DNA from: Deltaproteobacteria bacterium | GTDB lineage: Bacteria > Desulfobacterota > Desulfarculia > Desulfarculales > Desulfarculaceae | Direction of reading: 5' to 3' | Assembly (NCBI GenBank): GCA_021811275.1 | Contig: JAJZPI010000010.1 | Coordinates: 1 to 46,275, forward strand | Length of the DNA stretch: 46,275 nucleotides | Shown: positions 13,237 through 17,583 of the stretch, piece by piece | Layout: each line of letters starts with the position of its first letter | Numbering within the stretch: the first letter of the stretch is position 1 | Notes under the pieces: model-generated | Database searches by the model: none | The model's input: the letters and a program-made list of their open reading frames with translations, nothing else | What the model was told of the DNA's origin: nothing | Translations under genes and position numbers: made by a program

Positions 13237-13265
13237 TTGCCAAAGCCGTTGGCCAAGAATAGTAT
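13237..13265 (+). promoter_or_regulatory. Promoter of the arsenosugar-type operon
   Basis: TTGCCA (13237-13242) and TAGTAT (13260-13265) are separated by 17 bp. Transcription would start near 13272, which fixes the first gene's start at the downstream ATG (13303) and not further upstream. Confidence 0.55.
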
Positions 13266-13302
13266 ATCGTTGCAGACCACCACCGACCCCCCGGAGACGC
13301 CC

Positions 13303-13635
13303 ATGGACAACTACTACGACCCCAGCGACCTGCAGCAATTCGCCCGGATCGGCGAGGACGCACCCCAATTGGCCGGAAAGTTCTTTGACTATTACCAGGC
13401 CGTGTTCGCCGAGGGCGAACTGAGCGCGCGGGAGAAATCCCTGATAGCCCTGGCCGTGGCCCACACCGTGCAGTGCCCCTATTGCATAGAGGCCTATACC
13501 AAGGCCAGCTTGGAGCAGGGCTGCTCCCGGGGCGAGATGGTCGAGGCAGTGCACGTGGCCTGCGCCATCCGGGGCGGGGCCTCCTTGGTACATGGCATGC
13601 AGATGCGCCGTCAGGCCGAGAAGGTATCAATATAG
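13303..13635 (+). CDS. Arsenosugar biosynthesis-associated peroxidase-like protein (CMD family)
   Basis: The 110-residue protein belongs to the carboxymuconolactone decarboxylase/AhpD-like family. The redox CxxC is C58-P-Y-C61 (HTVQCPYCIEAYTKASLEQG), followed by EMVEAVHVACAIRGGASLVHG, which is the pattern of the small CMD protein found next to arsS. I take the start at ATG 13303 (GGAG 6 nt upstream), since a longer reading would begin inside the promoter. The protein ends 12 bp before the arsS start, so the two genes are co-transcribed. A role as redox partner or peroxidase for the radical SAM step is proposed in family annotations but cannot be shown here. Confidence 0.85.
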   Translation: MDNYYDPSDLQQFARIGEDAPQLAGKFFDYYQAVFAEGELSAREKSLIALAVAHTVQCPYCIEAYTKASLEQGCSRGEMVEAVHVACAIRGGASLVHGMQMRRQAEKVSI

Positions 13636-13647
13636 GCGAGACGCGCG

Positions 13648-14598
13648 GTGCCCTCCTTCGCCCAGACCCTGCGCGCTCACCAGCTTGATTTGGTGCGCGG
13701 CGCAACCCAGACCTTGCAGGTCAACTTGGGGCTTAGGTGCAACCAGGCCTGCCGTCACTGCCACCTGGAGGCCGGCCCGGCCCGTAGCGAGCTGATGGAC
13801 CTGGCCACCGTGGAGGCGGTGCTGGCCTACGCCCTGCGGGGCGGCTTCACCACCCTTGACATCACCGGCGGCGCCCCGGAGATGAACCCAAACCTGGAGC
13901 GGCTCATCGCCGGCGCGGTCCGGCCCGGGCTACGGGTCATGTTGCGCGCCAACCTCACCGCCTTGGGCCGGCGCGGTCCGGAGCTTATGGAATTCCTGGC
14001 CGCCCAAGGGGTGGCGGTGGTGGCCTCCTTCCCCAGCCTGAGCCCGGGCCAAGCCGACGCCCTGCGCGGAGAGGGCGTCTTCGCGGCCTCGCTGGACGCC
14101 CTCGCGCGCTTGAACGCCCTGGGCTACGGCCGCCAAGGCAGCGGCCTGGAACTGGACCTGGTGGCCAACCCCACCGGGGCCTTCCTCCCCCCGGCCCAGG
14201 CCGCCACCGAGAAGCGCTACCAGGCCGAGATGAAACGGCGCTGGAACCTGAGCTTTAACCACCTCTACTGCTTCGCCAACGTGCCCCTGGGCCGCTTCGA
14301 GGGCTGGTTGCGAAGTTCCGGCAATTATGACGGCTATCTGGAGCGCCTGAGCTCCCAGTTCAACCCCTGCGCCGTAGCCGACCTGATGTGCCGCAGCCTG
14401 GTATCCGTGGACTGGCGGGGGCATCTCTTCGACTGCGACTTCAACCAGGCCGCCGGGCTGCCCATGAACGGCCGGCGCATCCACGTCGATGACATGACAG
14501 GCCTCCCGCCCCTTGGCCAGCCCATCGCCCTGGGTGACCACTGCTTCACCTGCACCGCCGGCGCGGGGTTCACCTGAGGAGGGGCCATCGCCGCCTGA
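13648..14598 (+). CDS. arsS: Arsenosugar biosynthesis radical SAM protein ArsS, probable selenoprotein (Sec at in-frame TGA 14575-14577)
   Basis: ArsS-type enzymes are radical SAM proteins reported to attach a 5'-deoxyadenosyl group to methylated arsenic. The cluster motif is C31-N-Q-A-C35-R-H-C38 (CxxxCxxC), followed by DITGGAPEMN and a C-terminal DUF3641-like region. The ordinary reading stops after 309 residues at HCFTCTAGAGFT. The next codons, GGA GGG GCC ATC GCC GCC TGA, extend it to GAGFT-U-GGAIAA. From memory, homologues end in CTAGAGSSC-G-G or carry selenocysteine at that Cys, and the family includes known selenoproteins. A hairpin that meets bacterial SECIS criteria starts 14 nt after the TGA. 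I therefore annotate Sec at residue 310, for a total of 316 residues. The start is GTG 13648, with a weak ribosome binding site. If Sec is not decoded, the product simply lacks its last seven residues. Confidence 0.8.
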
Positions 14599-14607
14599 GT
14601 TCAGGCG
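14575..14607 (+). promoter_or_regulatory. Putative bacterial SECIS element after arsS TGA
   Basis: After TGA (14575-14577) the mRNA can form a perfect 6-bp stem, CGCCTG (14592-14597) with CAGGCG (14602-14607), around the loop AGTT. The loop starts 20 nt after the TGA and has G in its second position. Bacterial SECIS elements need a loop 16-37 nt after the UGA, a stem of at least 4 bp and a G in the first two loop bases. The second stop (14596-14598) lies at the top of the stem. Confidence 0.55.
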
Positions 14608-14638: not shown

Positions 14639-16189
14639 ATGCCTGACGCCTCTACCGACCCGCCCCGGGCCTCGTCCCTGCCCCTGGACGAACACAATCG
14701 GAGTCTCTTGGCGCGGGTCCGTCCAGAGGGTTGGACCAACCCCCAGCCCGCGCCGGGATACCATCTGGTGGTGATCGGCGGCGGCACCGCCGGCCTGGTC
14801 GCGGCCGTGGGCGCGGCGGGCCTGGGGGCCAAGGTGGCGCTGGTGGAGCGCGATCTCCTGGGCGGCGACTGCCTGAATGTGGGCTGCGTGCCCAGCAAGG
14901 CCCTGATCCGCGCCGGCCGGGCCATGGCCGAGCTGAAGCGCGCCGCCCAACTGGGCCTGCGCGGGGCCGAGGCCGTCAGCGCCGACTTCCCCGCGGTCAT
15001 GGCCCGGTTGCGCTCCTCCCGCGCACGCCTGAGCGCTCACGATTCGGCCGAGCGCCTGAAGGGCTTGGGCATCGACCTTTTTCTGGGCCAGGGGCGCTTC
15101 AGCGGGCCGGAGACGGTCGAGGTCGAAGGGCGCGCGCTACGCTTTTCCCGGGCGGTGATCGCCACCGGCTCCTCGCCGGGCGGGCTGCCCTTCAAGGGCC
15201 TCATGGAAACGGGCTACCTCACCAACCGCGATGTATTCAACCTGAACGAGCTGCCCCGCCGCCTGGCCGTGTTGGGCACCGGCCCCCTGGGTTGCGAACT
15301 GGCCCAGGCCTTCCAGCGCCTGGGCGCGGCGGTGGTCATGGTCGGCCGCTCGGGCCAGATCATGACCCGGGAGGACCCCGAGACCGCCGCGCTGGTGGCC
15401 CGCAGCATGGTCCGGGACGGCCTGGACCTCAGGCTAAACACCAACGTGACCCTGGTGGAAAGAGGCATGGGGGGCAAGCGCCTGGGCAAGCTCTTGCATT
15501 TGGAGTCCGGAGGCCGAGCCGAAGTCGTGGAGGTGGACGAAATCCTGGTCGGGGCCGGCCGCGACCCCAACCTGGCGGGCCTAGACCTGGAGGCCGCGGG
15601 CGTGGACCACGACCGCCGTCAGGGGGTCAAGGTGGACGACTATCTGCGCACCACCAACCATCGCATCTTCGCCGCCGGCGACGTCTGCCTGGCCCAGAAG
15701 TTCACCCACGCCGCCGATGCCGCCGCCCGCCTGGTCATCCAGAACGCCCTGTTCGCCCCTACCGCGCGCTGGAGCTCCCAGCAAGTGCCCTGGTGCACCT
15801 ACACCGACCCCGAGGTGGCCCACGTGGGGCTCTATCCCGATCAGGCCAACAAAAAGGGCGTTGTCGTGGAGACCATCCGGGTGGAGTTCAACGACTTGGA
15901 CCGGGCGGTGCTGGACGCCGAGGAGGATGGCCTGCTCAAGCTGCACCTGCAAAAAGGGGGGGACAGGATCCTGGGCGCGACCCTGGCCGCGGCCCACGCC
16001 GGGGAGATGATCGGCGAGATAGCCCTGGCCATGCGGGCCGGGCTGGGCTTGAAGACCGTGGGCCAGGTCATCCACCCCTACCCCACCCAGGCCGAGGTCT
16101 TCAAAAAGGCCGCCGATACCTTCAACCACACCCGCCTCACCCCAGCCGTGAAGCGCTGGATCGGACGCTGGCTGGCCTGGCGCGGTTGA
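14639..16189 (+). CDS. FAD-dependent pyridine nucleotide-disulfide oxidoreductase (mercuric reductase-like)
   Basis: This 516-residue flavoprotein has an FAD-binding Rossmann motif (VVIGGGTAGLVAA, 44-56) and the redox-active disulfide C78-L-N-V-G-C83 in GGDCLNVGCVPSKALI. It also has an NAD(P)H-binding segment (AVLGTGPLGCELAQAF), FAAGDVC for FAD, and a dimerisation domain ending in IHPYPTQAEVFKKAAD. It lacks an N-terminal HMA metal-binding domain and the C-terminal Cys pair of true mercuric reductase. It has a 40-residue N-terminal extension of unknown role. Such enzymes are frequent in arsenosugar-type clusters, and here it follows arsS by 40 bp. A thiol- or arsenic-reducing role is inference. 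Confidence 0.85.
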   Translation: MPDASTDPPRASSLPLDEHNRSLLARVRPEGWTNPQPAPGYHLVVIGGGTAGLVAAVGAAGLGAKVALVERDLLGGDCLNVGCVPSKALIRAGRAMAELKRAAQLGLRGAEAVSADFPAVMARLRSSRARLSAHDSAERLKGLGIDLFLGQGRFSGPETVEVEGRALRFSRAVIATGSSPGGLPFKGLMETGYLTNRDVFNLNELPRRLAVLGTGPLGCELAQAFQRLGAAVVMVGRSGQIMTREDPETAALVARSMVRDGLDLRLNTNVTLVERGMGGKRLGKLLHLESGGRAEVVEVDEILVGAGRDPNLAGLDLEAAGVDHDRRQGVKVDDYLRTTNHRIFAAGDVCLAQKFTHAADAAARLVIQNALFAPTARWSSQQVPWCTYTDPEVAHVGLYPDQANKKGVVVETIRVEFNDLDRAVLDAEEDGLLKLHLQKGGDRILGATLAAAHAGEMIGEIALAMRAGLGLKTVGQVIHPYPTQAEVFKKAADTFNHTRLTPAVKRWIGRWLAWRG

Positions 16190-16227: not shown

Positions 16228-17583
16228 ATGACCCGACCAGAGCGCCTGATCATCTTCACCAGGCCACCGGTTCCCGGCCAGGTCAAGACCCGCCTGATCC
16301 CAGCCCTCGGCCCGAAAGGCGCGGCGGAGCTGCACCGCCACCTGGCCCAGGGCGTGCTGGCCTGGGGGCTCAAGCTGGCCCTCTTGCGCCCGCTGGGGAT
16401 CGAGGTGCGCCACGACGGCGGTAATCCGGAAGAAATGCGCGCTTGGCTGGGCCCGGGCCCCTTCTTGCGCCCCCAGGGGCCGGGCGACCTGGGCCAACGC
16501 ATGGAGCGGGCGCTGGGCGAAGCGCTCCAGGAAGGGGCCAGCCGGGTCATCCTGGTGGGCACCGACCTCCCCGGCCTCACCGACCAGCATTTGAACCGGG
16601 CCTTGGAGGCTTTAAATGAACGCGACTTGGTGTTGGGGCCTGCCACGGACGGCGGCTACTATCTGGTGGGCCTGACCAGGCCAGCGCCGGAGATATTCAG
16701 CGGCATCAGTTGGGGCGGGCCGCGGGTGCTGGCCCAAACCCTGGCGGCCGCCCAGACGGCGGGTCTGGAGCCCGCGTTGATTCCCGGGCTGTCCGACCTG
16801 GACCGGCCCGAGGACCTGGCCGGACTCGGCCATGCGCCCGCTCCCCCAGCCCTTGAGCGCGTGACCGGCCTGATAACGGTGATCATCCCCGCCCTGAATG
16901 AGGAGCCCAACCTGGGCTACGTGGTGGAGAGCGCCCTGCGCGGCCAGGGGGTGGAGGTCATCGTGGTGGACGGGGGCAGTCAGGACCGCACCTACGCTCT
17001 GGCCCGCGCGCTGGGGGTCAAGGCGCTTATGAGCTTTGCCGGACGGGCGCGGCAGATGAATCTGGGCGCGGCCCTGGCGCGGGGCGAATACCTTTTGTTT
17101 CTGCACGCCGACACCCTGCTTCCCTCAGGCTGGGACGGCCAACTGCGCGATATGCTGAACCAACCTGGGGTAGTGGCCGGGGCCTTCCAATTCGGGCTGG
17201 ACGCCGGGGGGCCCGCCTATCGCCTGTTGGAAAGGCTGGTGGCCTGGCGTTCACGCTGGCTCCAGCTGCCCTACGGCGACCAAGCGATCTGCCTCCGAGC
17301 GTCTATGTTTGAAAATTTGGGCGGTTACGCGGAAATTCCCATCATGGAGGACTTTGAGCTGGTCCGCCGCCTGGCCCACCGGGGACGCCTGGCCCTGGCG
17401 CCTGCGGCGGTGCGTACCTCGGCCCGTCGTTGGCGGGTCCGGGGCCTCTGGCGCACCACCCTGATCAACCAGGCGATAGTGCTGGGCTATGGCCTGGGAG
17501 TCCCTCCCGCCCGCCTGCACCGGTGGTACGGCCGCAGCCGGCCCACCCGGCCCGGCCCACCCTCCCCACCGGGGAAAAACTAG
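16228..17583 (+). CDS. Fused DUF2064 / family 2 glycosyltransferase (arsenosugar-type)
   Basis: This 451-residue protein joins two glycosyltransferase-like domains. Residues 1-205 are DUF2064 (TIGR04282-like): RLIIFTRPPVPGQVKTRL, GTDLPGL at 111-117 and ATDGGYYLVGL at 139-149. After a short linker, residues 213-445 are a GT2 domain (TIGR04283-like): TVIIPALNEE (217-226), VVDGGSQDRT, FAGRARQMN, LHADTLLPSG and MEDFELVRRL. The two domains are often separate neighbouring genes in arsenosugar clusters; here they are one reading frame with no stop or restart between them. The likely job is transfer of a sugar to the product of the ArsS route, but the donor and acceptor are unknown. It ends the operon. 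The start chosen is ATG 16228; there is no strong ribosome binding site, and a start at 16207 is out of frame. Confidence 0.85.
   Translation: MTRPERLIIFTRPPVPGQVKTRLIPALGPKGAAELHRHLAQGVLAWGLKLALLRPLGIEVRHDGGNPEEMRAWLGPGPFLRPQGPGDLGQRMERALGEALQEGASRVILVGTDLPGLTDQHLNRALEALNERDLVLGPATDGGYYLVGLTRPAPEIFSGISWGGPRVLAQTLAAAQTAGLEPALIPGLSDLDRPEDLAGLGHAPAPPALERVTGLITVIIPALNEEPNLGYVVESALRGQGVEVIVVDGGSQDRTYALARALGVKALMSFAGRARQMNLGAALARGEYLLFLHADTLLPSGWDGQLRDMLNQPGVVAGAFQFGLDAGGPAYRLLERLVAWRSRWLQLPYGDQAICLRASMFENLGGYAEIPIMEDFELVRRLAHRGRLALAPAAVRTSARRWRVRGLWRTTLINQAIVLGYGLGVPPARLHRWYGRSRPTRPGPPSPPGKN

Follow-up and report, generated by a model that had tools for sequence, protein, structure and literature searches.

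A probable selenocysteine form of the radical SAM enzyme ArsS in a Desulfarculaceae genome, with its stop UGA inside the putative SECIS hairpin

Selenocysteine (Sec) is inserted at UGA codons, and the ArsS family is among the proteins catalogued as carrying it: in the selenoprotein tables of two papers, ArsS is entered as a bacterial selenoprotein with the motif GxxU and AAR34688.1 as its example, with Zhang and Gladyshev 2005 given as the source (PMC13188914, PMC9312934). For biochemical activity, a review cites the ArsS of Cheng et al. 2021 for adenosylation of arsenic (PMC12159101). NCBI groups the family under the model TIGR04167 (rSAM_SeCys, “ArsS (seleno)protein”), which is named for its Sec/Cys position. 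The characterised ArsS of Cheng et al. is reportedly a Cys form. Here we describe an arsS gene in a 46,275-nt stretch of DNA from a Desulfarculaceae bacterium (the window). It shares the family name with the characterised enzyme and shows a radical SAM plus DUF3641 architecture, but has a predicted Sec at the C-terminal position where the former is said to be of the Cys type. With TIGR04167 and AAR34688.1 it shares a full-length profile match over the cut-off, the C-terminal GxxU/GxxC Sec/Cys site and the partner genes TIGR04169, TIGR04282 and TIGR04283; it differs from the family in its own motif, GFT-U (Cys forms usually have GSS-C), in a stop UGA that lies within the putative SECIS hairpin, and in a host genome with no arsenite methyltransferase (ArsM) over the cut-off. 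The Sec reading of this gene is thus well supported but not new knowledge: it adds a member to a catalogued selenoprotein family, not a new kind of selenoprotein.

The gene occupies 13648-14598 on the forward strand, from a GTG start to the second of two in-frame TGAs, and would encode 316 residues with Sec at residue 310. The original prediction had placed the GTG, both TGAs and the hairpin arms, and the distances between them, correctly throughout. The ordinary frame stops at the TGA at 14575-14577, directly after HCFTCTAGAGFT; reading on in frame gives U-GGAIAA, with the tail GGAIAA at 14578-14595, and then the second TGA at 14596-14598. Against TIGR04167 (curated cut-off, 300 bits), the read-through protein scores 374.1 bits and matches profile positions 4-303 of 303. 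When cut at the first TGA, it scores 363.6 bits and matches positions 4-297; thus, the final positions of the model are matched by the read-through form only. Pfam assigns PF04055 (Radical_SAM) and PF12345 (DUF3641), both over cut-off; the radical SAM CxxxCxxC motif reads CNQACRHC in the translation, and the C-terminal CxxC and Sec lie in HCFTCTAGAGFTU, whose last four residues (GFTU) are of the GxxU type. The gene at 13648 thus very probably encodes the radical SAM enzyme ArsS in its Sec form.

What stands at the Sec site in other members? Among 47 homologues read from the family, class and phylum (own gene included), 32 have Cys and 15 have TGA, so that the TGA at 14575-14577 aligns with Cys in 32 and with TGA in 14 other genes. 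Each of the 15 TGA genes continues into a short tail of the GGAI/GGSI type, and the Cys homologues have related short tails. The homologues do not, therefore, all end earlier without Cys or Sec, an outcome that the original prediction had named as fatal to its claim; the alignment that it proposed finds Cys or TGA at the site and sequence continuing past it. The motif it quoted, GAGSS(C/U)GG, holds for the Cys forms but not for the TGA forms, in which the site reads GFT-U (14 of 15) or GST-U (1 of 15). Of 20 genomes in the taxonomic family, 12 carry a TIGR04167 match over cut-off; 11 of these 12 contain a single in-frame TGA, always at the arsS Sec codon and always followed by six codons. TGA is held by 14 of 17 matches at the class level; in the phylum sample, we counted it in about 26 of 88 matches. 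This distribution bears on whether the TGA could stem from a sequencing error, or from a recent nonsense mutation in a codon for Cys: although TGA is a single base away from TGC and TGT, the same TGA recurs in 14 other homologues from several genera and families, most of them with a matching hairpin, leaving such an origin with a negligible chance.

The sole Cys gene in the family (locus L029) has TGT in place of TGA and keeps the surrounding residues as GFT-C-GGSI, with no hairpin. Its genome still has tRNA-Sec, and L029 therefore looks like a Sec-to-Cys change and is unlikely to reflect loss of the machinery.

Bacterial SECIS elements (bSECIS) are hairpins that, in the published model (PMC13188914), have a loop of 3-9 nt, a stem of 4-16 bp, a spacing of 16-37 nt, a G within the first two loop positions and an energy of at most -7.5 kcal/mol. 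The candidate apical hairpin of arsS, CGCCUG-AGUU-CAGGCG at 14592-14607 (forward strand), pairs 14592-14597 with 14602-14607 in a perfect 6-bp stem around a 4-nt loop (AGTT in the DNA, 14598-14601) with G at position 2; the hairpin starts 14 nt and the loop 20 nt after the TGA at 14575-14577. The SECIS spacing and the loop G claimed in the original prediction are borne out, and the hairpin satisfies four published bSECIS constraints; it shares with the consensus its loop length, stem length, loop-position-2 G, 20-nt distance from the UGA and an energy below -7.5 kcal/mol. As an isolated 20-nt hairpin it folds at -9.5 kcal/mol (z -3.1), and the fold of its 42-nt context is unremarkable (z -0.87). 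How often would such a hairpin follow a TGA by chance? When the bSECIS limits, with a stem of at least 5 bp, were applied to every TGA on both strands of the GC-rich window, 152 of 1153 (13%) were followed by one; given this frequency and the ordinary 42-nt fold, the hairpin alone is weak evidence. An Rfam scan around arsS gave chance matches only.

What chance does not account for is conservation: tail, spacing and hairpin are found again in TGA homologues, and the TGA falls on a conserved Cys position. A strict hairpin test is passed by 11 of 15 TGA genes, compared with 2 of 32 Cys genes, and 10 of the 11 have a spacing of 20 or 21 nt; the four TGA genes that fail are L025, L026, L033 and L083. 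The covariation score is 0.170 against a shuffled mean of 0.086 and was equalled in one of 500 shuffles, a frequency that is not a probability because the sequences are related; in the two outer hairpin pairs, both sides have changed among homologues. Could this G+C-rich hairpin, located at the junction of arsS with the gene downstream, be an intrinsic transcription terminator or attenuator and not a SECIS? No T run lies downstream (GCGCTGGCAAAACC), the next co-directional gene begins at 14639, and genes with TGA at the site retain the hairpin whereas most of those with Cys lack it; a terminator is thus extremely unlikely.

A rival reading, that the protein ends at 14575 with an untranslated tail and a hairpin that is incidental in GC-rich DNA, can draw on the 13% of window TGAs with a SECIS-like hairpin and on the 363.6 bits that the cut form still scores. 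Yet the protein sequence encoded beyond the TGA (GGAI) is conserved and follows the profile up to its last position, genes that lack the TGA have nothing but Cys at the site, and TGA turns up at the same codon in many genomes; we consider an end at 14575 very improbable. The internal TGA of arsS is very probably read as Sec, in which case an automatic annotation would miss seven residues of the real protein. The selenoprotein reading put forward originally is in this way supported by the profile end, the Cys/TGA homologues, the SECIS-like hairpin and the presence of selA, selB and selD in the genome. In the proposed course of translation, the UGA at 14575 would be decoded as Sec, six further codons translated, and synthesis stopped at the UGA at 14596, placing Sec where a conserved Cys otherwise stands in a C-terminal CxxC-then-C/U motif. 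From the family, the Cys/TGA correspondence, the tail, the hairpin and the sel genes together, we conclude that Sec is very probably inserted into ArsS.

Is the second UGA a real stop? We take it as one because Cys homologues also finish within a few residues, ending in TAA, TAG or TGA at varying distances. Of the 15 TGA genes, 14 use TGA to terminate as well, and in 13 this stop lies at the same spacing in the same CCTGAG; thus, stop and SECIS overlap in 13 genes. The arsS hairpin departs from the bSECIS consensus in just this respect, spanning the end of the coding region with the terminating UGA (14596-14598) included. It is possible, though we put it forward only tentatively, that a terminating UGA is conserved within the SECIS stem-loop of the preceding Sec UGA, so that one structured element would serve as both recoding signal and stop. 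The passages on bacterial selenoproteins consulted here contain no statement of this overlap.

Sec insertion needs its own machinery, and the original prediction held that absence of selA/selB/selC would refute it. That result was not obtained: profile matches over cut-off identify selA (607.8 bits), selB (380.4 bits) and selD (366.4 bits) in the genome. The gene for tRNA-Sec, selC, was not found, but its expected site is cut by a contig end. Rfam RF01852 retrieved only other tRNAs below the gathering score (Trp, Ser, Gly, Leu and Lys among those checked); the best match to the selC DNA of a same-genus genome, G013, is the end of a tRNA-Ala; and ARAGORN found no tRNA-Sec in the 19-20 kb around selA, selB and selD. 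Two same-genus genomes, G013 and G014, have a tRNA-Sec with anticodon UCA. In G013 and nine other relatives, tRNA-Sec lies downstream of a gene of the CCA-adding-enzyme type (identity read from its sequence), by ~35 nt in L077 and by roughly 90-200 nt in the others, counted from the last matched residue. In our genome (245 contigs, 97.9% complete), only the first 172 residues of this gene are present: it is truncated by the end of contig C67, at base 5. Since the conserved neighbour of tRNA-Sec is cut there, an assembly gap best explains the missing gene, and selC most probably sits in it. The selD gene (locus L018, 1387-2430, reverse strand, contig C175) itself has one in-frame TGA, in the motif ARAAGUAAKIGPG, and its sequence makes SelD a likely second selenoprotein of this genome.

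A separate observation concerns L064 1501-1597 in G014, which matches the Rfam tRNA-Sec model at 56.7 bits, over the gathering score, and which ARAGORN calls as a tRNA-Cys (gca) of 97 nt, an unusually long one. It may resemble tRNA-Sec while carrying an anticodon for Cys, a type of tRNA that has been described before.

What might the enzyme act on? Upstream of arsS, 13237-13635 encodes a peroxidase-like partner, perox_w_seleSAM, with a CPYC motif (TIGR04169, 181.3 bits, cut-off 120). Downstream follow an FAD-containing pyridine nucleotide-disulphide oxidoreductase resembling mercuric reductase (14639-16189; NF004991, 732.8 bits, cut-off 620) and a fused gene (16228-17583, ATG at 16228) that joins in a single frame a CofC-like TIGR04282 part (200.5 bits) and a GT2 arsenosugar-associated glycosyltransferase part, TIGR04283 (250.6 bits), both over cut-off; all three genes are on the forward strand. 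With TIGR04169, TIGR04282 and TIGR04283 in one operon with arsS, these surroundings are, by the names of the models, the known neighbourhood of the TIGR04167 family. An arsenosugar role is nevertheless uncertain here because the genome (G000) has no ArsM match (NF008823) over cut-off. The same holds for six other ArsS-bearing genomes of the family (7 of 12 in all). Six of the 20 family genomes have ArsM, and ArsS accompanies it in five; its presence thus does not decide the substrate of ArsS. Adenosylation of a methylated arsenical would be the activity predicted for this ArsS from its family. In the C-As bond chemistry, Sec310 would probably act as a ligand reactive towards metal(loid)s or in redox steps.

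For the family, the immediate gain is a corrected gene end: ordinary annotation drops Sec and six more residues of a probable active-site tail. The gene also adds a clean Sec/Cys pair, including a probable Sec-to-Cys change within the family, at L029, that is accompanied by loss of the SECIS hairpin in a genome retaining tRNA-Sec. If the overlap of stop and SECIS is real, two UGAs only six codons apart would be decoded in opposite ways, and termination at the second would depend on the ribosome melting the hairpin.
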